Shown here one piece after another: positions 1,433 to 10,411 of a stretch of DNA of 18,885 bases (its first letter is position 1; every line of letters begins with the position of its first letter). Below the pieces are notes generated by a model that made no database searches, was not told the DNA's origin, and worked only from the letters and a program-made list of their open reading frames with translations. Origin of the DNA: Zoogloeaceae bacterium (lineage in GTDB: Bacteria; Pseudomonadota; Gammaproteobacteria; Burkholderiales; Rhodocyclaceae). Position numbers and translations under genes: made by a program. Location of the stretch: assembly GCA_031290535.1 (NCBI GenBank), contig JAITNI010000061.1, positions 1-18,885 on the forward strand. The letters run 5' to 3'.

Positions 1433-1732
1433 TTACGCTTCCAGCACGCCCATGATGTCTTCTTCGCGCAGCACCAGGATTTCCTGGCCGTCGATCTTGA
1501 CGGTTTGTCCGGCGTATTTGCCGAACAGCACACGGTCGCCCACTTTGACGTCCGGGGCGGTGATCTTGCCGGAATCGTCGCGCTTGCCGGGGCCAACCGC
1601 CAGCACTTCGCCCTGATCGGGTTTTTCGCCCGCAGAATCGGGAATCACAATGCCAGCGGCAGTGGTGCGCTCGGCTTCAACGCGCTTGGCGATGACACGG
1701 TCGTGCAAGGGACGGATTTTGGTGAAGCTCAT
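1433..1732 (-). CDS. groES: GroES co-chaperonin, 10 kDa
   Basis: This encodes the heptameric lid of the GroEL chamber. The 99 residues begin [17 protein letters not shown] and contain the mobile-loop region ([14 protein letters not shown], about 19-32), [10 protein letters not shown] and [15 protein letters not shown], ending [10 protein letters not shown]; this is the full family length. I chose ATG 1732 because an AGGAG site lies about 7 bases upstream and the protein then starts as its homologues do; an in-frame ATG at 1777 would add 15 residues of no family resemblance. It is the first gene of the groES-groL operon, with the CIRCE operator in its leader. Confidence 0.98.
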
Positions 1733-1814: not shown

Positions 1815-1841
1815 TTAGCACTCAGCGCCAACGAGTGCTAA
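1815..1841. promoter_or_regulatory. CIRCE operator (HrcA binding site)
   Basis: A perfect inverted repeat TTAGCACTC-N9-GAGTGCTAA, identical to the CIRCE consensus in both arms and in the 9-base spacer. HrcA binding here is known to repress groE operons outside stress. It sits 83 bases before the groES ATG and just downstream of the predicted promoter, so it would also lie in the 5' end of the mRNA. Confidence 0.97.
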
Positions 1842-2016: not shown

Positions 2017-2042
2017 TGTAAGCGGACAGAACATAGTCGAAA
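2017..2042 (+). repeat. Right terminal inverted repeat of the Mu-like element
   Basis: Begins TGTAAGCGGACAGAACATAG and continues into CGAAAGG. It pairs with the reverse complement of 9571-9596, with mismatches at positions 4, 7, 16 and 20 of the first 21. The start resembles Tn7 ends (TGTGGGCGGACA), and a CGAAA at position 22 recalls Mu end sites. It is placed as the right end because it is distal to the repressor. Confidence 0.78.
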
Positions 2043-2082
2043 GGCGGGAAAAGCGGTTTTGCAAATGACTTGGGGATAGGTG

Positions 2083-2137
2083 TTGCATCCCGCGCAAATT
2101 TTTTGCATCCTGTGCAACGGCGGCGCATCCCGCATGG
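2083..2137. repeat. Three direct repeats at exact 20-bp spacing near the right end
   Basis: The core GCATCCcGcgCAa starts at 2085, 2105 and 2125. The first two copies extend to TTGCA-N5-YGCAA, the second being a perfect 5-base dyad (TTGCA-TCCTG-TGCAA at 2103-2117); the third ends in CATGG instead. A 20-bp step puts the sites on nearly the same face of the helix, as expected for an array of protein sites. They lie 66-120 bp from the element end, so transposase binding is likely; a regulator of transcription is the alternative. Confidence 0.65.
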
Positions 2138-2201
2138 GTCGGGGTGTCTTGGGCGCTATGCGGGGTCTCGCGTCCTGACAATTCCCCAAGGAGAAGAGGC
2201 C

Positions 2202-2276
2202 ATGCAGCCCCTAATCAGAATTCTACCCAGACGCCCAAACTATCCACATCCCGCACGATACCGGCGGGGGCGCTAG
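2202..2276 (+). other. Short plus-strand frame with a strong ribosome site (24 codons), doubtful
   Basis: ATG at 2202 is preceded at 8-12 bases by AAGGAGAAGAGG, a better ribosome site than most genes here have. The frame gives only 24 residues (MQPLIRILPRR..) and ends at TAG 2274-2276, overlapping the 3' end of the decoration-like gene on the other strand. It may be the start of a cargo gene cut short by a deletion, or chance. The rest of 2017-2214 holds only the end repeats. Confidence 0.25.
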
Positions 2277-2622
2277 CGCCGCCGGGGTTGGTTTTGGCGA
2301 CGGTGGCATCATCGGCGATGTAACAGGCTTTCCAAAGATCAGCGCTGGTGATAGCGTCATCGCCGGGGCTGTTCTTGAGGCGATAGCAGCCGCGCCGCAC
2401 TTTTACGCGCCGATCTCCGCCCGCGCCGGTGCGGTTATCGGCGGCCTCTTGGGCAATCCCTATCCCAGCAAGGGTATTGGCAGCGCCGCCGGGGGCAACA
2501 TCGCCGGTTGAGGTCAGGGCAACAATGCCCCCAGCGTGAATCCAGACGCCAGCGGCAACGGGAAACTCAAAATCCACGGCATCGCGCCGGGGGGTGTTAT
2601 GGTCTTGGGTCAAGGCAGTCAT
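2215..2622 (-). CDS. Small head-decoration-like phage protein
   Basis: A 135-residue protein, mostly beta-type and rich in Gly, Ala and Val. It begins MTALTQDHNTPRRDAVDFEF and has the pattern (PVAAGVWIHAGGIVAL near 20-36, GIGIAQEAADN near 54-64, VRDVDSLGVWVEF at the end) seen in small capsid decoration/stabilisation proteins encoded directly after the major head gene of Mu-like phages. The ATG at 2622 has AAAGGAAA about 8 bases upstream and lies 15 bases after the T stop codon. The family call rests on position and general style, not on a motif I can name with certainty. It is the last gene before the right end, and no tail gene follows. Confidence 0.62.
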   Translation of the reverse strand: MTALTQDHNTPRRDAVDFEFPVAAGVWIHAGGIVALTSTGDVAPGGAANTLAGIGIAQEAADNRTGAGGDRRVKVRRGCYRLKNSPGDDAITSADLWKACYIADDATVAKTNPGGASAPAGIVRDVDSLGVWVEF

Positions 2623-2637
2623 GGCGGGTTTCCTTTC

Positions 2638-3522
2638 TTAAAGCCACGGGCAGACAATGAGTTCAAAAGCATCCCGATAATGCGAGGTTTCCAGCTTCAG
2701 GAGCTTCAAGGCGGATTCCTTCATGGCGGGGGAAACCAGCAACACATTGGCGGTAATGCCCAAAGGCTTGCCGGTGGGGGCTTTGATGCTCATCATGGCG
2801 GCATCGGCGCTGGCGACATTGGCGGCGGTAAGGGGCAGATTGGACGCATACGCCAATTGCCATAGGCCAAACCCGGCATTTAATCGCGCTTCCACCCCGT
2901 ACACGAATTCGCCCCGGTTAAACACATGATCGTCCGTGTTCTGGTCTTTTTTGATGAAGGTGTAATCCTTGCGGATTTGCAGGATAAAGGGCTTCACAAT
3001 CTTGGTCGTATCCAGCAGATACCATGACGGAACGCCACCTGCTTGCGGGTCAAGCGCAAGGTTTGAGACACCGCCCTTGTCCGGGTCTCCGGGGTCTGCT
3101 GGATGGTCAGTATCAAAGAAATATTGACCATCATAACAGGGCGTACCGGTGCCTTTCTGGATCAGTTCAAACAACAGGCTGTCCGGGTGCAGGGCGGCAT
3201 CCTGCCCCATCATCTGAAAGGGGCTGGAAAGCACACCCAGCTTGTCGTCCTCAATATCATTTTGGGGCACGGAAATGGTGTGCTCAAAATTGCGATTCTT
3301 GAGGGTGAAACTGGAAACAGCGAGGCCGTTAAAATGCTTGTCGCCTATCCATTCCCGCAAGCTGCTGTTTTGCCCCAGCCATGCATAATTCTCTTCGGCA
3401 GAAGAGGATTTAACCTGCATTGCAAGTTGGGGGTGAATGGGCTTTGCCGCCAGTTTTCCGGCCTCAAAATCAGCGCGGAAATTGGTAAAAACACTGGCGA
3501 TGCTTTCTTTGTTGAGAATCAT
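2638..3522 (-). CDS. T: Mu gpT-like major head (capsid) protein
   Basis: A 294-residue protein matching the Mu T major capsid family (Mu-like prophage major head subunit). Features typical of the family are the N-terminus MILNKESIASVFTNFRADF, the segment YAWLGQNSSLREWIGDKHFNGL (about 46-67), TISVPQNDIEDDKLG (about 83-97), YDGQYFFDTDHP (about 131-142) and the C-terminal FELIVCPWL. It would build the icosahedral shell with an HK97-type fold. The start has AAAGGAG 8 bases upstream, overlapping the end of gene I. Length is close to Mu T (about 305) and no break is seen. The I-T-decoration order is that of Mu, but the portal and terminase genes that normally come first are missing. Confidence 0.93.
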   Translation of the reverse strand: MILNKESIASVFTNFRADFEAGKLAAKPIHPQLAMQVKSSSAEENYAWLGQNSSLREWIGDKHFNGLAVSSFTLKNRNFEHTISVPQNDIEDDKLGVLSSPFQMMGQDAALHPDSLLFELIQKGTGTPCYDGQYFFDTDHPADPGDPDKGGVSNLALDPQAGGVPSWYLLDTTKIVKPFILQIRKDYTFIKKDQNTDDHVFNRGEFVYGVEARLNAGFGLWQLAYASNLPLTAANVASADAAMMSIKAPTGKPLGITANVLLVSPAMKESALKLLKLETSHYRDAFELIVCPWL

Positions 3523-3534
3523 GTTCAGGCTCCT

Positions 3535-3864
3535 TTACAGAGGGTGAGAGGTGGAAAAATCGCCGCCCTTGCCGCTGGAATCTTCAGCTTTCAGGCGGGC
3601 AAATTCGGCAGGGTCTTTGCCGGTCAATTGGCAAAGATGCAAATCAGAAGGGGTTAAACCGAGGGCTTTAATCCCCGCGAATCGTTGCGCCATTTTGGCG
3701 CGTTCAGATTGCATCTGGGGCATTTCGGGGCGATTCTCAACCAGCGCCTTGAAGGCGGAAAGGTTATATTGAGCAAGCTCTGTTGCAGCCCGGATTTCAG
3801 CCGCATCAATGCGTCCGGTCATCAGGCAATGCCCCACAAAATCATTGGCATCCCGCCGAATCAT
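3535..3864 (-). CDS. Possible internal scaffold start (Z-like) within gene I
   Basis: An in-frame ATG at 3864 is preceded by AGGA about 11 bases upstream and would give 109 residues starting MIRRDANDFVGHCL and ending with the I C-terminus. In phage Mu the scaffold Z is known to be encoded in frame inside I. Here the start is inferred only from the weak ribosome site and from that precedent; the ATG at the MEAAVAHSLQ segment further upstream is another candidate. Confidence 0.3.
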   Translation of the reverse strand: MIRRDANDFVGHCLMTGRIDAAEIRAATELAQYNLSAFKALVENRPEMPQMQSERAKMAQRFAGIKALGLTPSDLHLCQLTGKDPAEFARLKAEDSSGKGGDFSTSHPL

Positions 3865-4470
3865 GGCGGTTTTTTCCTGCGCCAATTCACGCTTGCTGTC
3901 GTTCAACCCTGCCAACTCAAGGCGTAAATCTTCGGTTTCCTTTTTGAGCGCTGCCCATTCCTTGCTTTCTGGTGAGGCTTCCAATTGCAGGCTATGGGCA
4001 ACAGCAGCCTCCATGCCATCCAGCGCCGGAATATTGGTTAGCGCCACATTAAACAGGCTGGCAATTGCGCCCGTTTTGCGGTCATAGCGAAAGACAGGCG
4101 AAATATAGCGGTATTCATCCGCCAGAATCGCCGTTTTTGCCGCTTGCGTCCATTTTACGCCGGTCGCAAACAGCCCTTTTCCGGGTCGCCATTCCAGACT
4201 ATGCACCCATCCAGCGGCGGGGGCAGGCTTGCCGTTTTGCTTGGCAAGTACGGCCTGATGCTCATAATCCACCATCAGCGGATTTTTTTGCGCGGTGTGC
4301 GCGGCAATCAATTGCGCGGCTTGGGATTCTTCCAGCACATAGGCGGCGGCATCAACCGGGCGGCCATCGCTGGCGCGAAATTCTCCCGCCGGGAAAATCT
4401 GAAACTCTCCCTCCGCTTCGTGAATTTCAGCGCTTAAAATGCCTATGGCGCGGTTGTGTTCGTGTTTCAT
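3535..4470 (-). CDS. I: Mu gpI-like prohead protease with C-terminal scaffold region
   Basis: 311 residues from ATG 4470, preceded by GAAAGGAAG. The N-terminal half fits the Mu-like I protein family: GEFQIFPAGEFRASDGRP near the start, MVDYEHQ near residue 72, GWVHSLEWRPGKGLFATGVKWT and the run YRYISPVFRYDRKTGAIASLFNVALTN around 120-145, with NIPALDGM. The C-terminal half is charged and helical (EWAALKKETEDLRLELAGL), as expected for a capsid scaffold. In Mu the I product matures the prohead and the scaffold Z is made from an internal start in the same frame. The first four bases overlap the Mor-like gene (ATGA), implying coupled translation. Extending to ATG 4527 would add a segment overlapping mor and is unlikely. 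Confidence 0.9.
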   Translation of the reverse strand: MKHEHNRAIGILSAEIHEAEGEFQIFPAGEFRASDGRPVDAAAYVLEESQAAQLIAAHTAQKNPLMVDYEHQAVLAKQNGKPAPAAGWVHSLEWRPGKGLFATGVKWTQAAKTAILADEYRYISPVFRYDRKTGAIASLFNVALTNIPALDGMEAAVAHSLQLEASPESKEWAALKKETEDLRLELAGLNDSKRELAQEKTAMIRRDANDFVGHCLMTGRIDAAEIRAATELAQYNLSAFKALVENRPEMPQMQSERAKMAQRFAGIKALGLTPSDLHLCQLTGKDPAEFARLKAEDSSGKGGDFSTSHPL

Positions 4471-4928
4471 ATCACAGCTTCCTTTCGTGGATTGATTGAG
4501 GGTTGTTTGAGTACCTTTTCTATCCATCGGTCAGAGCGATGGTAGCGTCCCGCCAGATCAAAAATCGCCTGACGGAAGGTATAGCCGCCCGTTTTGCCGG
4601 TCAACATATCAAATTCGGCGCGGATTTTATCCGCCTGTTTTTGCAACATGGCTTTCTGGCAAGAGGGGATATAAATATCACACCCGCCCATCTCTTTTAC
4701 CAATTGCGTGAGCACCTCAAAGCTGATGCATTTTAATATCTCGCGCCGTGATCTGCTGGCAGGACGCTGAAATGGGGAAGAAACAGCCACCGGCACACGA
4801 AAACTACGGCCTGCAAAATGCGTTACAACAGCGGCGGCGGCTTCCAGCCCCAATACGCGCACCAGTTCCCGCACGGTTTCCGGGAAGGCCGGGTAGACGC
4901 TCAAATCCTGTAATTCTTTCGGGGTCAT
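4467..4928 (-). CDS. mor: Mor-family middle/late transcription activator, doubled N-terminal domain
   Basis: 153 residues; GGAG lies 9 bases before ATG 4928. The second half matches Mu Mor: VLTQLVKEMGGCDIYIP (about 72-88; Mor has a like segment ending LGGGQVYIP) followed by a C-terminal helix-turn-helix (FRQAIFDLAGRYHRSDRWIE, about 117-136). Mor-type proteins are dimers that activate a phage promoter lacking a good -35. The first half (ELVRVLGLEAAAAVVTHFAG then RSFRVPV, about 21-47) looks like a second copy of the same dimerisation unit, so one chain may carry two such units and one DNA-binding domain. The gene lies just after the early terminator and overlaps gene I by 4 bases, so it shares a transcript with the capsid genes. 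Confidence 0.78.
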   Translation of the reverse strand: MTPKELQDLSVYPAFPETVRELVRVLGLEAAAAVVTHFAGRSFRVPVAVSSPFQRPASRSRREILKCISFEVLTQLVKEMGGCDIYIPSCQKAMLQKQADKIRAEFDMLTGKTGGYTFRQAIFDLAGRYHRSDRWIEKVLKQPSINPRKEAVI

Positions 4929-5195
4929 GATTTAACTCCATTCATCAATGACCGCCATGATACGGGGGATGGGGTTTGTGGGTCAGGGGGAAGGGGTTCG
5001 GCAGAAAGAGCGCCTGCGCCGGGGGCGATGCAGGCCAGCGCCGGGGGTAAAACGGATTGGTGGACAAGAGGGCAGAAGGGAAAGCAATTTGCACGCCGTA
5101 CAAACGCCCAAGGTTCGATTTTTGAGAGCGCGGCAAAGGGGCAAGGTAGGAGAGGCGACAAAATCGCCTGTAAGGGCGCAAAAAGGACGGGATGT
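4929..5195 (-). promoter_or_regulatory. Leader / control region upstream of mor, no gene seen
   Basis: About 265 bases between the early terminator and mor. The open frames across it (for example a Pro- and Leu-rich minus-strand frame at 4925-5218) have no ribosome site and cross the terminator, so I treat it as non-coding. The promoter for mor-I-T must be here, but I see no convincing -35/-10 pair, which would fit an activator-dependent promoter. It contains the inverted repeat at 5153-5169. Confidence 0.45.
5153..5169. repeat. 6-bp inverted repeat upstream of mor
   Basis: AGGCGA-CAAAA-TCGCCT, a perfect 6-base dyad with a 5-base centre, about 27 bases downstream (on the minus strand) of the early terminator. 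It could be a regulator site in the middle-promoter region or a weak RNA hairpin; no U-run follows. Confidence 0.4.
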
Positions 5196-5223
5196 AAAAA
5201 CGGCCTTGGGAGTGCCAAGGCCG
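5196..5223 (-). terminator. Rho-independent terminator of the early operon
   Basis: Perfect 9-bp stem CGGCCTTGG-(5-base loop)-CCAAGGCCG at 5201-5223, followed on the minus strand by TTTTTAC. It lies 12 bases after the stop of the 56-residue gene and separates the transposition genes from mor-I-T. Element genes are thus in two transcription units. Confidence 0.9.
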
Positions 5224-5234
5224 GGGGGGGATGG

Positions 5235-5405
5235 TCAGGACTTATGCCCGTCCATTATTTTAAGGACTTGTTGTCGCATGGCGTTGTGATAGCAGTCGAC
5301 CATTGCCATTAAAACATCCAAGGGATCAGGGGGCGCTTTCGCTTCTTCTTTGAGAGCGGCGCGGCGAGACGAGAGGAAAATAATAGGCGCGGGTTGGGTG
5401 TTCAT
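5235..5405 (-). CDS. Small protein of unknown function (56 aa), end of early operon
   Basis: ATG 5405 has GAAGGAG about 8 bases upstream, which decides the start. The protein begins MNTQPAPIIFLSSRR, has an acidic/proline centre (EEAKAPPDPLD) and a helical C-terminal half with VDCYHNAMRQQVLKIMDGHKS. There is no membrane segment or motif I recognise. It lies 46 bases after B and just before the early terminator, the place where Mu-like phages carry small early genes such as kil or gam, but it does not resemble these. The strong ribosome site and snug placement argue that it is real. Confidence 0.65.
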   Translation of the reverse strand: MNTQPAPIIFLSSRRAALKEEAKAPPDPLDVLMAMVDCYHNAMRQQVLKIMDGHKS

Positions 5406-5451
5406 GGTGTTTCTCCTTCGTGGTGAGTGATAAAACAGGTTGAGGTCAACT

Positions 5452-6468
5452 TCATGCCTCGTTAATAACGCCCGCCGCAATCGCGGCGGCCTTGAAAATA
5501 TCGGGGGTGATTGGGCAGCCTTTCAGGGTTGCCATACGTTGCGCCATAACCCTTGTTTTTCCAAGGTTACGCAAGCCGCCATTCTGGCAGCCAATCAGCA
5601 GCGCCACGTCACGCATGGCCTTGCCGCGCAATTCCCATGCCTCCATGAGCGCATCTACATCATCGGCGCTTGGGTTTTCAATAGTCATCATCGGGGCAAC
5701 CATGCGGCTAACAACTTGTGGCAGGTCGCCTTTTTTCAGGCTTGCATAGGCGGAAAGATTGCCCATAAAAGCAATGCCAATTCCGAATTCATCCGACAAA
5801 CAGCGCAATTCGTCATATCGTTTTGGGCGCAAAAATTGCGTTTCATCCAGAATCAAAAGCCCGCCGCGCCCGATGACATTTCCTATCCATGGCAAAGCAG
5901 CGCTTTCCGGGTTTTGTATCCACATGCCGCCGCCCATTTTAATGATTTTATCCTTGATTCCACGATAAAAAGCAGCAAGGCTTCTTTCCATGCCATTACA
6001 GGGAACAAGGACAACAGGTGTATGCGGATAAAAATCTTGTTGCTCCATATACAACAGCGCCGCCATTGTTTTTCCCGCACCCGCCGCGCCAAAAATTCCG
6101 CATAGCCCGCCCATTTCACGGCAGCGGGAAAATTGCGCGATGATCTTTTTAAGGGTTGGCGTTTGTACAATCCCGTGATCCGGCTTTTCTTCCGTGTCTA
6201 TGCGCTCCTTCCATACCAGCAGCGCCGGGGCAATTTCGGAAAGATCGCCCGATTTGATCGCGTCGCGAATCCGGGGGGCGGGAATTTCTGTTTCCAGCGC
6301 CATGCGGTTTTGACTTACGCCCGCCGCCTGTAATTCAGCAAGGAAGTTTTCAGCCCGCATCTGCTGTTTTTCAGCGGCTTTCAACTTCTCTTTTTCAGCC
6401 GCCCGGGCGCGCTCTGCCATTTTGGCCGCGAATTCTTCCGGGCTTTTAATCATCATTGGTGCGTCCAT
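5452..6468 (-). CDS. B: MuB-type AAA+ ATPase, target DNA activator
   Basis: 338 residues. In Mu, B binds target DNA as an ATP-dependent filament, delivers it to MuA and gives target immunity. Here a charged helical N-terminus (about 10-45) is followed by a helix-turn-helix region (GVSQNRMALETEIPAPRIRD, 50-69), Walker A GAAGAGKT at 127-134 and Walker B LLILDE at 204-209, then FMGNLSAY (about 234-241), a sensor-like segment. Length is near MuB (312). The ATG at 6468 has AAGGAG 8 bases upstream. It follows A by 40 bases. All ATPase motifs are intact, so it is probably functional. Tn7-type TnsC/TniB ATPases are related, but length and context favour MuB. Confidence 0.92.
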   Translation of the reverse strand: MDAPMMIKSPEEFAAKMAERARAAEKEKLKAAEKQQMRAENFLAELQAAGVSQNRMALETEIPAPRIRDAIKSGDLSEIAPALLVWKERIDTEEKPDHGIVQTPTLKKIIAQFSRCREMGGLCGIFGAAGAGKTMAALLYMEQQDFYPHTPVVLVPCNGMERSLAAFYRGIKDKIIKMGGGMWIQNPESAALPWIGNVIGRGGLLILDETQFLRPKRYDELRCLSDEFGIGIAFMGNLSAYASLKKGDLPQVVSRMVAPMMTIENPSADDVDALMEAWELRGKAMRDVALLIGCQNGGLRNLGKTRVMAQRMATLKGCPITPDIFKAAAIAAGVINEA

Positions 6469-6508
6469 GATACTGCTCCTTTTCAGGTTGGGTTATGGCG
6501 CTTCTGGA

Positions 6509-8662
6509 TTACAGAAATGCCCGTTTTTTTGGCAAGAAAAGCGCGGGGTCGGGGGCGTTCATTTCCTCCACAATCGCCATAACCCGCGACTGTACCTCCG
6601 TTTCTTCCGCCGTTTTTTCGCGGGGTCTTTCCAGCTTGCCCGGCACCATTTGCGCCACGGACGCAACGGGCAAAATCTCCCCTGTTTCGGGGGCGATTTC
6701 CTCCTGTTGCGCCCCTTGCAAGTTTTTTGCGCCCCGTGCAATCGTGCTCATAAGCCCTTGCGTAGCCCGCGCTTGCGCCTTCACGGCCTTTTTGTGTTGG
6801 CTTTGCGCCTTGCTGATTGCCCGCGCGTCTTCCTTGTTGTGGCCAGCGCCGCGCATTTGCGGCTTTACGGCCTTGGCAATCAGTTTATGCCCCCGGTAAA
6901 CATCTATTCCGGTGCTATAATCTTCAGGGTCAAACAGGGCAAAATATCCCTGCCCCTTGACCGCATCGGCGGTTTCTTTGCTCCAATACATCCAGCCATC
7001 CAGATAAACACGCCCATCCCGGCGCAAGGTGACTTCTGCACGGGAAAAGCGCAGGCGGTCAAATTGCGCCTCCGTAATCCGCCGGGGCACAAAACCGGGG
7101 GTGTGCATGAGTTCCTCATACATCATGATTGGGCTTTTGCCCCCCATGCCACTTCCCTTATGGGGGGAGCGGTGATACTGGCGTATTCTTTCCTCATATG
7201 CCCGGATAACATCTGCAACCGGGATGCATTTTCCTTTGTCCCATTCTTCGGGGCGGGCTTCGGGACGATTGCCAAGGTACGCGCCCCTGAATTCCGGGTG
7301 CATTTCTACGTCCTTCAGGGTTTTAAAGAGCCGTTCCACGGGTTTTGACCGCCCGCGCCCCGGTATCGCCCATGTCACTTCAATACCAAGATCAGTATAA
7401 AGACCAATGGGTTCACCTTCCTTCACTTTGCCGCGCCGCCGGAAAGGTGAGCCGCCCGTGATGCCCTTGGCGGCGGTCTCCATGCCGTTATCAGACTGTA
7501 TGCGGATTGGAATAACGCGCCCGGTATGCTTGACAGCATTAATAAATGCCTTCTGATTCAAGTCTGAAGTCAGCGCGTCGCCAAAGGCATAGCCCGTAAT
7601 ATAACGTGAGCGCACATCCATCATGGGATAAAACCAGAGCCGGAAAGGCTTGCCGCCTGCCATTTTTCCGGCAGGGTCAATGCACATTAAATCAATCCGC
7701 CGCCCGTCTATGCTCCATTCCTCATGCAGGGCGCCGGAATAACCGCGCTCAATTTTTGGCTCAAGCCGTTCCAGCGCCTTCCTGTCGCCAGACAGCGCCG
7801 CCCGTGTGGTTTCCGGCAGGTCAAACCAGCGCCGGTTAAAGGTCTTATGGCTTGGAATCTTCCCCCAGCCTTGCCGCTCTGCCTCGCGGGCGGTGGCAGC
7901 CCACGCCGCCCCGGTATTGGCTCCCGGCGCGGCGCGATGCGTCATAAAGAAAGGCCATGAATCCCCCGGAAATTCAGCCATGCGGGCATTGGTTCGCCCC
8001 GTAAGCTCTGGTAACAGCGCCGCGCCCCAATCGCAACGGGGTAGCCCCTTGATGCGGTTCAGGTAATTGATGGTGGTTCCCTGCTTGACTTCCGTAACCT
8101 CGCGCACTCGCGCATAAGCGTCCATCTTTGCCATGCCGCCGCGCACCAGTTCAAAGAACAGCGTCACCGCCGCAAGCGCCTTTTGCGCCCGCGCCTGACA
8201 TTTGGGCGACGCTGCGTTATAGCGCTGCTGCAAAAACTCCCGATCCTCCTCATCAAGCCGCGATTCGCCAGCGCCCGCCGCCGCTGGCGCTTGCGCCAGC
8301 CAGTACCGCGCCTGTGCTTCCGGGGACAAACCAGACAACGGAATCCGGTACGCCTCGCCCCCGTTGCCGGATTCCTTATATGTGCCGGGGTATTTGTCTG
8401 CGAGGATTCTTTTGCGAATTGCCCGCATGGTAACGCCCTCTAATTTTGCCGCTTCCTCAACATCAAAAAGGGGGGTCAAAAGTTCCGACCTTTGGCAAGG
8501 CTTGGCAGAAGAAAAATGCACGGGCTTGCCCTCCTCATTTCCCTGTCCTGTAAGGCTTTCTATGGGGTCGGAACCATTTTTAGGGGCTACGCTCTCAAGT
8601 TCCGACCTTTGCGGCAAAAGGTCGGAACCAAAACCCGGCTTTTTTGGGGCTTGCTTACGCAT
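6509..8662 (-). CDS. A: MuA-type DDE transposase
   Basis: 717 residues from ATG 8662, chosen because GGGAGG lies 6 bases upstream; ATGs at 8680 and 8707 are less well placed. It cuts and joins the element ends. Around 63-125 lies a winged-helix-type end-binding region (LFDVEEAAKLEGVTMRAIRK). The integrase-like core holds D319 (WSIDGRRID), D391 (IQSDNG) and E443 (GRSKPVERLF), the expected DDE triad. A Mu-type C-terminal barrel (VTLRRDGRVYLDGWMYW, YFALFDPEDY) and a basic tail for B contact follow. MuA is 663 residues. The start overlaps the ner-like stop by 8 bases, so translation is coupled. The first ~60 residues are low in complexity and coded by the repeats at 8480-8628; no enhancer-binding domain like that of MuA is evident there. 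Confidence 0.95.
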   Translation of the reverse strand: MRKQAPKKPGFGSDLLPQRSELESVAPKNGSDPIESLTGQGNEEGKPVHFSSAKPCQRSELLTPLFDVEEAAKLEGVTMRAIRKRILADKYPGTYKESGNGGEAYRIPLSGLSPEAQARYWLAQAPAAAGAGESRLDEEDREFLQQRYNAASPKCQARAQKALAAVTLFFELVRGGMAKMDAYARVREVTEVKQGTTINYLNRIKGLPRCDWGAALLPELTGRTNARMAEFPGDSWPFFMTHRAAPGANTGAAWAATAREAERQGWGKIPSHKTFNRRWFDLPETTRAALSGDRKALERLEPKIERGYSGALHEEWSIDGRRIDLMCIDPAGKMAGGKPFRLWFYPMMDVRSRYITGYAFGDALTSDLNQKAFINAVKHTGRVIPIRIQSDNGMETAAKGITGGSPFRRRGKVKEGEPIGLYTDLGIEVTWAIPGRGRSKPVERLFKTLKDVEMHPEFRGAYLGNRPEARPEEWDKGKCIPVADVIRAYEERIRQYHRSPHKGSGMGGKSPIMMYEELMHTPGFVPRRITEAQFDRLRFSRAEVTLRRDGRVYLDGWMYWSKETADAVKGQGYFALFDPEDYSTGIDVYRGHKLIAKAVKPQMRGAGHNKEDARAISKAQSQHKKAVKAQARATQGLMSTIARGAKNLQGAQQEEIAPETGEILPVASVAQMVPGKLERPREKTAEETEVQSRVMAIVEEMNAPDPALFLPKKRAFL
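8480..8628. repeat. Four alternating GTTCCGACC repeats within the 5' end of the transposase gene
   Basis: The motif GTTCCGACC occurs in + orientation at 8482 and 8599, and as its complement at 8566-8574 and 8617-8628. The last two copies make a perfect 12-bp dyad, GTTCCGACCTTT (8599-8610), 6-base centre, AAAGGTCGGAAC (8617-8628). The two + copies are in a 15-bp direct repeat AAGTTCCGACCTTTG (8480-8494, 8597-8611), 117 bp apart and in frame. The repeats encode RSEL and GSD segments of a poorly conserved N-terminal linker. They may be protein sites (an internal enhancer or operator) or a palindromic repeat that has spread into the gene. Confidence 0.8.
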
Positions 8663-8903
8663 GGTCAGCCTCCCATGCATGGTAGCTCTCCCCAGCAGTC
8701 GGGGCACATGCTACACTTGCGCCAAGGTCAGCATCTTTAAGACCAAGAGCAACGGCGATTTCATGCCCCTTGCCCCAATGGCCTTTAGATTGACCGTTAA
8801 GCGCCATGTAGACCGCAGTGCGGTTGTATCCGTGCTCTTTAGCCCATGCGGTGATAGTGCGGCCATCGCGCTTGAATCTGGCCTTAACTTGTTCGGGTGT
8901 CAT
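8655..8903 (-). CDS. Ner-like helix-turn-helix DNA-binding protein
   Basis: 82 residues from ATG 8903, with AAAGGAG about 7 bases upstream. The N-terminal ~60 residues (TPEQVKARFKRDGRTITAWAKEH and YNRTAVYMALNGQSKG) form a helix-turn-helix domain of the kind found in early regulators of Mu-like phages, where Ner turns down early and repressor transcription. A short Ala-rich tail with no recognisable motif ends the protein. It is the first gene of the early operon, divergent from the repressor at 8971, and overlaps the transposase start by 8 bases. I am sure of DNA binding; the Ner role is inferred from position. Confidence 0.8.
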   Translation of the reverse strand: MTPEQVKARFKRDGRTITAWAKEHGYNRTAVYMALNGQSKGHWGKGHEIAVALGLKDADLGASVACAPTAGESYHAWEADHA

Positions 8904-8925
8904 ATTGGCTCCTTTGTGGGGGTTG

Positions 8926-8965
8926 AACATATTTGTATGTTACACACACATTTGTGGATTTGCAA
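8926..8965 (-). promoter_or_regulatory. Early promoter with overlapping paired operator sites
   Basis: On the minus strand TTGCAA (8960-8965) and TAACAT (8937-8942) are separated by exactly 17 bases, a fair sigma-70 promoter for ner-A-B. A perfect dyad AACATA-TTTG-TATGTT (8926-8941) overlaps the -10, and a related site with the same ATTTGT centre (8950-8955) lies 19 bp away, between -35 and -10. The two sites in the gap between divergent regulator genes are the likely repressor/Ner operators. Confidence 0.7.
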
Positions 8966-8970
8966 CACTT

Positions 8971-9408
8971 ATGACTGACTTTAAAGAAATATTGTTGCGC
9001 CTCAAGCAACAGCTTGGCGTCGAAGATGACAAGGACGTTGCAGAGGCGCTTGGCTTGAAAGCCAATGCTTTCAATGCCCGTAAGAAGCGCGAGAGCTTCC
9101 CGGAGACAGAGCTTTACGCCCTTGCCGCCAAGCGCCCAGACCTTCATTTAGATGTAGAGTACGTACTTACTGGAAGGGCGTTTTTAGAGCGGTTCGGAGA
9201 AAAGGTGCGTACTGCCACAGTTCGTAGCATCAACGCTGTGACAAGAAAAATTGGTGAAATAGACGCCCATTCCGCTATGATCGAAGGTACGCCAATGTCT
9301 CATGGGTACAATGCCATCCTTGCTTCGTTTGCATCTCGGTTAAGCGATGAAGACAAGGTGGTTCTTCTGAGTGTTGCCGAATCGCTGTCAAAAAAGAACG
9401 AGGGGTAG
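8971..9408 (+). CDS. Phage repressor, CI/Mu c-like helix-turn-helix protein
   Basis: 145 residues, divergent from ner-A-B, in the place of the Mu c repressor. The N-terminus (TDFKEILLRLKQQLGVEDDKDVAEALGLKANAF up to ARKKRESFPETELYALAAKRPDL) matches the CI-type repressor N-terminal domain with its helix-turn-helix near 22-43 and the usual DVEYVLTG linker near 65-72. There is no peptidase domain; the C-terminal half is a short helical segment, probably for oligomerisation. It should hold the element in lysogeny through the sites at 8926-8955. ATG 8971 is the only sensible start in frame, but no ribosome site precedes it, so a leaderless or weakly translated message is possible. Confidence 0.85.
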   Translation: MTDFKEILLRLKQQLGVEDDKDVAEALGLKANAFNARKKRESFPETELYALAAKRPDLHLDVEYVLTGRAFLERFGEKVRTATVRSINAVTRKIGEIDAHSAMIEGTPMSHGYNAILASFASRLSDEDKVVLLSVAESLSKKNEG

Positions 9409-9478
9409 GCCTTCATGAATGCATTTCCGCTTGTGTTTTCCATATCTTTCCGCCGCTTCACGGCTAAAAATGCCATAA

Positions 9479-9498
9479 GATTTGATATAAATCAAATC
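9479..9498. promoter_or_regulatory. FNR/ANR-type box in a perfect 8-bp dyad
   Basis: GATTTGAT-ATAA-ATCAAATC, containing TTGAT-N4-ATCAA (9482-9495), the exact consensus of FNR/ANR/DNR oxygen- and NO-sensing regulators. It lies 70 bp downstream of the repressor stop and about 100 bp from the element end. No well-placed -10 was found on either strand, so the function is open. Confidence 0.5.
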
Positions 9499-9510
9499 GG
9501 CTTCCGTCCG

Positions 9511-9550
9511 CCATCCCGCCCCATCCCGCCTCATTCCGCCTCATCCCACG
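9511..9550. repeat. Four tandem 10-bp repeats near the left end
   Basis: Four back-to-back units: CCATCCCGCC, CCATCCCGCC, TCATTCCGCC, TCATCCCACG. On the minus strand the core is CGGGATG every 10 bp, about one helical turn. The array lies 46-86 bp inside the left end. The same CATCCCGC core recurs at the right end (2085-2137), in the same chromosomal direction. Confidence 0.75.
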
Positions 9551-9570
9551 TTTTCGCCCTGATTTTGTAA

Positions 9571-9596
9571 ATTTCAGTATCTTCTGTCCCCTGACA
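9571..9596 (-). repeat. Left terminal inverted repeat of the Mu-like element
   Basis: Read on the minus strand from 9596, TGTCAGGGGACAGAAGATAC, pairing with the right end at 2017-2042. The last element base is 9596, giving ...CCTGACA, with the 3' CA that DDE transposases need. The tssM frame becomes recognisable directly after it. Confidence 0.78.
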
Positions 9597-10411
9597 CCCA
9601 GGCAGAAGTTCAGGTTGAACGCACACTGGCCACACTCGCCTATCAGGTCAGCAATCCCTGTCGGCAAGGCATTGATGGGTATTATCCCTTTGCCGACAGC
9701 GAATACGATGCGTCCGTGGAAGATTTTACCCGCGTCTTTGCCGCAGGCGGCGCGGCGGATGAATTTTTTCAGAAACAGCTTGCCTCCTATGTGGATGTTG
9801 GAGAACGCCCCTGGCGCTACAAAACCCAGGCGACCCTGGGGATGAGCGACAGTCTGGCGACAGGGTCTGGGATGTCTGCGGCCATGCCGACAGCCAGCAA
9901 TCTTCCGACATTGCAGGGCGAATACCTGAAGCAGTTACAGCGCTATATCCCGAATCCAGACGCTTTTGCCCAGATTCAGTCCATCCGCGAAGTCTTTTTT
10001 CGGGAAGTGGGCAGCAAAAAAATGGCCTGGAAAATGGATTTCAAGATCGTTGAGCTGGATCCGAGCATCGTTGAATTCATGATCAATATTGATGGGCAGA
10101 CCCAGCGCTATGTTCACGGCCCGATACAGGTCTTTTCCGTCAATTGGCCCGGCCCGCGTGGCGGTTCTGTCGCGGAAATGTCCGCCAATCCCCGCGTTCG
10201 TCCAGAAACTTCCACCATCATTGCCAACGGCCCCTGGGCCATTTTCCGCCTGCTGGATCGGGGCAAAATCATCAACACGGCCAATCCAGACCGGGTGCTG
10301 GTCGAGTATGATTTTGATGGTCGCAAGGTTTTGCTGGAAATCAGCACCGGCGGCCAGCAGAATCCTCTCAGCACCAGACTCCTCAAGAATTTCAGATGCC
10401 CCGGATTATGA
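9597..10411 (+). pseudogene. tssM: TssM (IcmF/VasK) C-terminal fragment, 5' part lost at element insertion
   Basis: About 271 codons of the C-terminal periplasmic part of TssM, the inner-membrane anchor of the T6SS that joins TssJ and TssL. Diagnostic segments are CRQGIDGYYPF (codons from 9659), DFTRVFAAGGAADEFFQKQL, the WRYK and SIREVFFREVGSK regions, FMINIDGQTQRYVHGPIQ, VNWPGPRGG and a C-terminal GPWAIFRLLDRG. Full TssM proteins are about 1,100-1,200 residues, so some 900 residues with the transmembrane and NTPase-like parts are gone. The frame is open upstream only to 9563, which includes element bases, and has no sensible start; GTG 9716 lies inside a conserved part. The stop overlaps the tagF start. 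The product, if any, could not anchor a secretion machine. Confidence 0.88.

Follow-up and report, generated by a model that had tools for sequence, protein, structure and literature searches.

We analyzed an 18,885-nucleotide stretch of a Zoogloeaceae bacterium genome, hereafter "the window", taken from a 1.7-Mb draft assembly that is 62.6% complete. At positions 2017-9596 the window carries a Mu-type element of 7,580 bp, and our results indicate that this element belongs to a lineage of compact elements of 7.6 to about 11.7 kb, which have their own A, B and ends, a lysogeny switch formed by repressor and ner, and usually a Mor-type activator. These elements are probably natural mini-Mu satellites, which would transpose by themselves, carry a few morphogenesis parts and need a helper for packaging and tails; we infer both the satellite life and the dependence on a helper. 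An original prediction, made by a model from the letters of the window alone, had already proposed a Mu-family satellite, and this proposal remains the best fit, with the trees described below setting the elements apart as a separate lineage; its frame was too narrow, however, as the relatives carry several different cassettes.

The Window Element Appears to Lack the Genes for a Particle of Its Own

Apart from the divergent repressor that precedes them, the genes are read right to left, with 6,708 of the element's 7,580 bases coding, in the order repressor, ner, A, B, orf56, mor, I (protease), T (capsid) and decoration gene (Table 1). Each gene listed in the original prediction was recovered with an open frame, and all but orf56 have a Pfam or PHROG match, that of the repressor falling just below its cut-off. 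The Mu-family A and B domains PF02914, PF09039 and PF09077 score above their cut-offs, and residues D320, D392 and E444 (numbering of that alignment), which we take to be the DDE triad by reference to MuA, are invariant across 10 aligned A proteins, while the Walker motifs of B were recognized by eye only. The 4-base overlap of mor and I reported earlier holds if translation of I begins at the ATG that ends at 4470, which aligns with the start of a homolog in a second species (G013, see below); an in-frame upstream ATG at 4527 is the alternative.

Using a labelled subset of the proteins of Mu, JBD25, martha and POA1180 as tblastn queries (E <= 1e-4), we found no terminase, portal, F, G, neck or tail gene in the window, which bears out the absence of packaging and tail genes that had been noted from the letters. 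The same queries were run on 10 gpT loci of the same bacterial family, and they detected a portal in 8 of the 10 and F plus G in the ninth, whereas the tenth (L162, on G340:C170; handles beginning with G, C and L denote genomes, contigs and loci) holds I, decoration gene, T and a neck-type match, and the roughly 9 kb upstream show no match to portal, F or G. As far as its sequence tells, the element is thus short of the genes needed for its own particle, as a satellite would be. Moreover, none of the nine element proteins matches an integrase in Pfam or PHROGs and the element carries a Mu transposase instead, which places it outside the phage-inducible chromosomal islands (PICI) and the capsid-forming PICI (cfPICI).

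T is predicted to keep the Mu/JBD30 capsid fold: the best Protein Data Bank (PDB) matches of its AlphaFold model (pLDDT 83.6) are the capsids of JBD30 and Mu (Foldseek, E 5e-26 to 1.5e-16, with JBD30 at 5e-26), and a profile search led to the same PDB entries. This fold bears on a different reading of the cassette, in which the shell was adopted for another use, so that a Mu transposon would carry a compartment akin to an encapsulin or a gene transfer agent. A protease, a capsid and a decoration protein without portal or terminase would suit such a compartment, and encapsulins do appear among the distant fold matches of the model, but their best E-value (about 7e-6, Foldseek) is far poorer than those of the Mu and JBD30 capsids. 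In addition, no cargo-enzyme gene was seen among the genes of the element, and relatives carry a tape measure in place of the shell, so that we consider an adopted shell very unlikely.

Table 1. Features of the window discussed in the text, with the evidence for each assignment.
Feature	Position	Strand	Evidence
Whole compact Mu-type element	2017..9596	-	paired TG..CA ends, 19/28 inward bases matching
Right end (attR-type), TGTAAGCGGACAGAAC...	2017..2044	-	likeness to relatives' ends
Left end (attL-type, repressor side), TGTCAGGGGACAGAAG...	9569..9596	-	likeness to relatives' ends
c-like repressor, 145 aa	8971..9408	+	Phage_CI_repr 4.4e-4, just under its cut-off
ner-like DNA-binding protein, 82 aa	8655..8903	-	phrog_925 2.1e-27
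A, DDE transposase, 717 aa	6509..8662	-	DDE_2 3.9e-16, HTH_Tnp_Mu_2
B, AAA+ target-DNA activator, 338 aa	5452..6468	-	AAA_22, Phage-MuB_C
orf56	5235..5405	-	no family match; G013 holds an unrelated 93-aa ORF here (no blastp match)
mor, middle/late transcription activator, 153 aa	4467..4928	-	Mor 5.1e-13
I, head maturation protease, 311 aa	3535..4470	-	Mu-like_Pro 3.6e-67; start picked by likeness to G013
T, major capsid protein, 294 aa	2638..3522	-	gpT 9.1e-98
Decoration-type virion protein, 135 aa	2215..2622	-	phrog_1731 8.6e-42
Conserved pseudoknotted RNA by right end (predicted)	2124..2187	-	compensatory changes; covariance-model matches; no Rfam match
Host groES	1433..1732	-	Cpn10 2.5e-34; downstream of late genes, same direction
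Host CIRCE operator of groES (presumed)	1815..1841	-	TTAGCACTC-N9-GAGTGCTAA, exact, intact beside element
Truncated tssM/icmF	9597..10411	+	IcmF_C 3.2e-27; open frame starts at the left-end junction

Compact Elements Branch Apart from the Sampled Phages

The original prediction had proposed a search for the same gene order, ends and size in other genomes. Such an element exists in G013, a second species of the same genus, where 7,794 bp with conserved ends and eight recognizable genes in the same order lie at another site, between host genes. The blastp identities of the two elements are 68% over 65 aa for the repressor, 53% for ner, 44% for A, 34% for B, 34% for mor, 50% for I, 72% for T and 56% for the decoration protein. 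Comparison of their codons gave dN 0.20 and dS 1.42 for T, and dN 0.57 and dS 1.89 for A, with dS near or past saturation and no estimate for B and mor, indicating purifying selection between the two elements.

A scan of genome contigs with the T alignment led to six loci, namely G013, Thauera CSMAG_1199 (G257), MS502-43, Nitrosomonas halophila and two others in which the match is limited to residues 1-75. In MS502-43, a T that is 73% identical and cut at its 5′ side is followed by a decoration gene (63%) and then by a host secretin gene. The decoration gene follows T in the window, G013, MS502-43 and G257. It lies ahead of T in JBD25, as it does in 9 of 10 phage-type loci, the exception, L166, showing no decoration gene. 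With T or A as a single query, no relative turned up among viral contigs, and a search of genome contigs with A was equally negative. The A alignment picked out one viral contig, which holds a stretch of 25% identity; with the T alignment there were 164 matching viral stretches, and the 80 best were retained.

The T tree has 28 rows, and its four compact proteins group together in a clade of their own (100/100, stem 0.82). Among the other 24 are a protein from the window's own genome (contig C155) and nine from viral contigs that may not all be full phages; long branches lead to POA1180, martha, L165 and Mu. In an A tree of 22 rows, a branch with 100/100 support has on one side 11 labelled compact elements and G185 (cut at a contig edge), and on the opposite side the seven rows labelled as full phages plus three without a label, with the window and G013 as sisters (100/99). 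The full-phage label was given to G477, G530 (two), G138 and G100 on account of terminase or portal matches near A, and L195 was omitted because of a stop in its A. Mu and martha fall outside the compact branch in both trees, and JBD25 does so in the T tree. The compact elements thus appear to form a lineage apart from the sampled phages, and the pattern expected of random deletion, with elements nested among full phages and devoid of independent relatives, is seen in neither the A nor the T tree.

These results bear on the possibility that the compact elements are independently decayed Mu prophages that retained A, B, mor and a few late genes. Target duplications outlast internal deletions and are no proof of transposition in the compact form, the late genes kept differ between relatives, and two loci look decayed, one (G257) by its lack of A and B and the other (MS502-43) by a copy cut inside T. 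On the other hand, the window and G013 elements share their order at different sites with A only 44% identical, compact elements group apart in both the A and the T tree, the frames are open with dN below dS, the decoration gene lies on the other side of T than in JBD25 and 9 of 10 phage-type loci, and the RNA described below is absent from 32 other loci searched. Independent decay is therefore strongly disfavored and, in our judgment, the least probable of the explanations considered. The earlier view of a settled element, as opposed to a random deletion, is well supported by the G013 twin, the compact-only capsid clade and the transposase branch without labelled phages, since the finding that would have spoken against it, a full-length parent and no independent relatives, came out the opposite way.

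Members of the Lineage Carry Different Late Cassettes

Of 395 genomes of the family, 18 matched the A alignment at E <= 0.001, and we judged 12 of these to be strong. At E <= 1e-30, and not counting the window's own genome, matches came from 3 genomes of the class (369 searched) and 7 of the order (399 searched); these genome groups overlap, and some of the A matches are full phages. All compact candidates have a repressor, ner and A, and all except G061 have a B match. A Mor- or C-type match is present in G185, G277, G226, G292, G068, G061, G320 and G075, and none was found in G1041, G1036 and G1007.

The late genes vary among these candidates. The cassette of G277 comprises a protease-like gene, a coil-like open reading frame (ORF) and a tape measure (phrog_794, 4.6e-140), where "coil-like" is our own reading of ORFs with weak family matches. 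A tape measure is carried by G075 and G292 (phrog_24) and by G1041 (phrog_794), a protease-like gene plus a coil-like ORF by G068 and G226, and an I-type protease plus a coil-like ORF by G061, G320 and G1007. The capsid set on which the original prediction focused is thus real, but represents one of several late cassettes.

A Covarying RNA Is Found in Compact Elements

The window (2124-2187), G013 (L036:14694-14757) and MS502-43 (L041:1478-1541) share a conserved stretch of 64 nt, located next to the last late genes or downstream of them, which also occurs at L152, L153, L154, L156, L213 and L214. Its predicted fold is a stem in two parts, the loop of which pairs with a strand further downstream to form a pseudoknot, and 4 of the 21 pairs are changed on both sides. 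Taken by itself, the folding of the nested part is not unusual in the window (z -0.6) and modestly unusual in G013 (z -2.4) and MS502-43 (z -2.3). A covariance model built from these three copies without the pseudoknot (R1) was run over 42 loci and yielded four more copies, all in compact elements (E 5e-5 in G292, 0.06 in G320, 0.26 in G226 and 0.28 in G068). Because viral contigs reach similar scores, the three weak copies (E 0.06-0.28) rest on the aligned core and on a second model built from all seven copies (R2). The seven-copy alignment, which was fitted to the nested stem and not to the pseudoknot, has 98.6% of its cells paired and 9 pairs with double changes, and its covariation score is 0.447 vs. 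0.134 when shuffled (0/500); the pseudoknot pair 26-63 is seen as CG, GC and AU.

R2 matches its own seven copies by construction. It found none at E <= 1 in the other 39 of 46 loci (7 compact and 32 other), and its best E-value among the 80 retained viral contigs, to which the viral RNA searches were confined, was 0.74; a pattern search of viral contigs likewise gave no match. As an independent test, R2 was applied to 358 family genomes and detected 9 places in 8 genomes, corresponding to six known elements, two new ones (G099 at 64.1 bits and G189 at 56.7 bits) and G226:C227 (50.5 bits). G099 and G189 were thus discovered via the RNA and not via A: in G099 the RNA follows B-, GemA-, C-, protease- and coil-type matches, and in G189 it follows a coil-type match only, near the contig start. 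No Rfam family matched the RNA at E up to 1 in the window, L036, L041 and L037, and none matched in L153, L154 and L156. Taken together, these comparisons point to a covarying, pseudoknotted RNA that is found in compact Mu elements and absent from the searched phage loci and from Rfam.

Two further ideas about the RNA were considered. That it might be a known motif downstream of gpT was not borne out, as Rfam held no match. As for RNA-guided targeting, the element and its target flank match no better than shuffled sequences would in the window, G075, G277 and G013.

Several Elements Lie Upstream of groES or Ribonucleotide Reductase

The right flank is readable in 14 cases (window, G013, G075, G277, G292, G068, G061, G1041, G1036, G1007, G099, G189, MS502-43 and G320). 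In 5 of the 14 (window, L150, L151, L153 and L213), groES follows in the same direction, at 284 bp in the window, 210 bp in G075, 157 bp in G277, 168 bp in G292 and 172 bp in G099, and a CIRCE box lies 56-176 bp from the element end; in the window, the presumed box was assigned by its consensus. A ribonucleotide reductase gene follows in 2 of the 14 (G068 at L154 and G189 at L214), the two genes being 77% identical to each other. Other right flanks begin with an AhpC/TSA peroxidase gene (G061) or the secretin gene (MS502-43), and G013 lies beside none of these four genes. Five of 14 insertions within a zone of roughly 130 bp would not be plausible under random insertion, suggesting either that the transposition machinery prefers such sites or that selection keeps insertions there. 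Mu-like insertion is described, in excerpts of one study, as globally random with hotspots (PMC5977238). In the window, a simple scan of the coding strand from the last gene to groES detected no terminator, so that transcription may read through into groES.

Target Duplications Flank Several Relatives, and the Window Copy Is Probably Rearranged

The window ends, TGTCAGGGGACAGAA on the repressor side (9596) and TGTAAGCGGACAGAA on the other (2017), are of the TG..CA type with matching inward sequence. Their pair score of 26.8 is not above random (maximum 29.3 in 60 trials), and we accepted them because they resemble the ends of relatives such as G013, and not on that score. The G013 element (L036:7517-15310) has TG..CA ends and an exact 5-bp duplication, TTGGA. 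The 60-trial null used ranges sized unlike the real searches, and a repeat with matched ranges covered G013, G068, G226 and G277: the scores of G013 (32.1), G068 (35.0) and G226 (31.9) were each reached in 0/100 random trials of matched size, and that of G277 (30.6) in 3/100, which is weaker than under the first null. G061 (27.9) and G075 (26.9) show 5-bp duplications with scores no higher than the 60-trial maximum of 29.3. From end to end, the other elements with 5-bp duplications measure 8,132 bp (G061), 8,237 bp (G068), 9,322 bp (G226), 9,327 bp (G277) and 11,672 bp (G075). G292 (about 9.9 kb, with clear ends at L153 7872 and 17763) and G1041 (11,154 bp) have ends without a duplication, the end score of G099 is modest (12.0), and the ends of G189, MS502-43 and G320 were not fixed.

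The window element itself has no 5-bp target duplication (CGGCG vs. CCCAG). Its right end faces CIRCE, groES and groEL (Cpn60), while its left end lies inside tssM/icmF. Given the missing duplication and the cut tssM, this copy is probably rearranged, an assembly join being less likely. Mu transposition is known to produce adjacent deletions and inversions, and the duplication may have been lost through a rearrangement of this type, by an adjacent deletion or an inversion into tssM. The IcmF-related domain PF06761 has no match in the window's genome, which fits an adjacent deletion within the limits set by the incompleteness of that genome (63%).

A Proposed Satellite Cycle and the Alternatives

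Laboratory mini-Mu are deletion derivatives of phage Mu that are mobilized by helper Mu, the helper terminase filling heads from the left end. In the satellite cycle that we propose, the element would, after induction, replicate by its own transposition, and a helper Mu-like phage would supply terminase, portal, neck, tail and lysis functions and package the element, its terminase filling heads from the element's left end. The cassette (protease, capsid and decoration protein in the window; protease and coil-like ORF, or tape measure, in relatives) would remake the helper particle, for instance by forming a satellite-specific head. Insertion upstream of groES or ribonucleotide reductase, facing the gene, may let late transcription enter genes needed for assembly or DNA synthesis. 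We also entertain, tentatively, the stronger idea of a new satellite class on a Mu module, combining replicative transposition, interchangeable virion parts, an undescribed RNA and chosen groES or ribonucleotide reductase sites at which host genes are hijacked; this is possible rather than likely.

Candidate helpers may be present in some of the genomes. Mu-type portals (PF06074) were detected in 4 of 11 genomes checked, two of them on other contigs of G013, where F and G lie beside one portal, and terminase, F and G beside the other. In the window's genome, contig C155 (L003) carries a second Mu-like segment with I, decoration gene and T. The original prediction had suggested looking for a full Mu-like prophage with a similar T in the same genome; the second gpT belongs to another clade, and no Mu-type portal was found in that genome. 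Downstream of T on C155 we noted neck-like and fibre-like ORFs, named by eye.

Several observations weigh against the satellite interpretation. Neither particles nor induction or transfer were observed, and a packaging site was not recognized. No Mu-type portal was found in 7 of the 11 genomes, including the window's own, 63% complete, so that the helper would often have to come from outside. Half of the compact loci (7/14) have no match to the RNA that the other 7/14 share, R1 gave four matches at E 0.08-0.6 among the 80 viral gpT contigs, and the match in G226:C227 (L215, a 5-kb contig) sits in an unlike gene order, with tape measure, protease, RNA, G-like gene and A-like start (read by eye). 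The G257 contig, which carries mor-like genes, I, T and a decoration gene, lacks both A and B, and several compact members are without proven ends. Finally, G013, with the same cassette as the window, sits at neither groES nor ribonucleotide reductase, and in the window a groES promoter-like site and CIRCE are intact, so that transcription of groES by read-through is something that we infer.

Some of these features would also suit a mobile anti-phage device, in which decoy or poisoning virion parts spoil superinfecting Mu-like phages and which spreads mainly by transposition and ordinary gene transfer, as opposed to packaging as a satellite. Each cassette is a virion fragment, too little for a particle, the members differ in the component carried, and 7 of the 11 genomes have no Mu-type portal of their own. 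A complete protease-capsid-decoration set under purifying selection exceeds the needs of a decoy, however, and T is modelled with the Mu/JBD30 fold; we regard such a device as unlikely, albeit less so than an adopted shell. It is moreover compatible with a satellite, as known satellites also harm their helpers.

Relation to Known Systems

Full Mu-like phages (Mu, JBD25, martha 12B12) have Mu-type ends and share repressor, ner, A, B, mor, I and T proteins with the window element, but measure 33-40 kb and contain terminase, portal, F, G and tail genes. Like the window element, laboratory mini-Mu combine Mu ends with A and B and have no packaging or tail genes; the lineage described here differs from them in being natural and diverged, with conserved late cassettes, a capsid clade of its own and a conserved RNA. 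cfPICI carry a site-specific integrase plus packaging genes, and resemble the window element in having their own capsid genes and relying on a helper, a reliance deduced here from genes, whereas the window element has a Mu transposition module, with no portal or terminase found.

The satellite families of a 2024 review comprise P4-like, PICI, cfPICI, PLE, PICMI, VEIMEs, Tycheposons and soil elements, none of which is said in the excerpted text to be Mu-built, and the term "phage Mu" is absent from the main text of the review (PMC11389934). SaPIbov5 encodes Ccm, a homolog of the helper's capsid protein that redirects helper head assembly and is described as the only SaPIbov5 protein required for doing so (PMC8569155). 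This satellite thus shares with the window element a capsid homolog of its own, but is not Mu-type, and the excerpts of that paper mention no satellite-encoded protease, decoration protein or tape measure (PMC8569155). In open-licence literature, no natural Mu satellite or groES-site element appeared in the titles and abstract starts among the matches listed.

If true, a transposase-based lineage with virion parts, an RNA and groES sites would widen the known modes of phage parasitism. It would also make two questions testable, namely whether exchanging one virion part suffices for hijacking a particle, and whether Mu-type transposases can favor particular sites.

Additional Observations

The G257 genes occupy L037 4418-7831, near a tRNA and an sRNA-Xcc1 match, and are flanked by a radical-SAM/TRAM (MiaB-type) gene on one side and an ABC transporter on the other, with unassigned ORFs on both sides. 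In addition, a 24-39 bp repeat is present at 4981-5019 of the window and at three places in the window's genome (G000:C155:55-93, C329:1056-1082 and C253:3368-3391), one copy lying upstream of mor and one upstream of another I gene.

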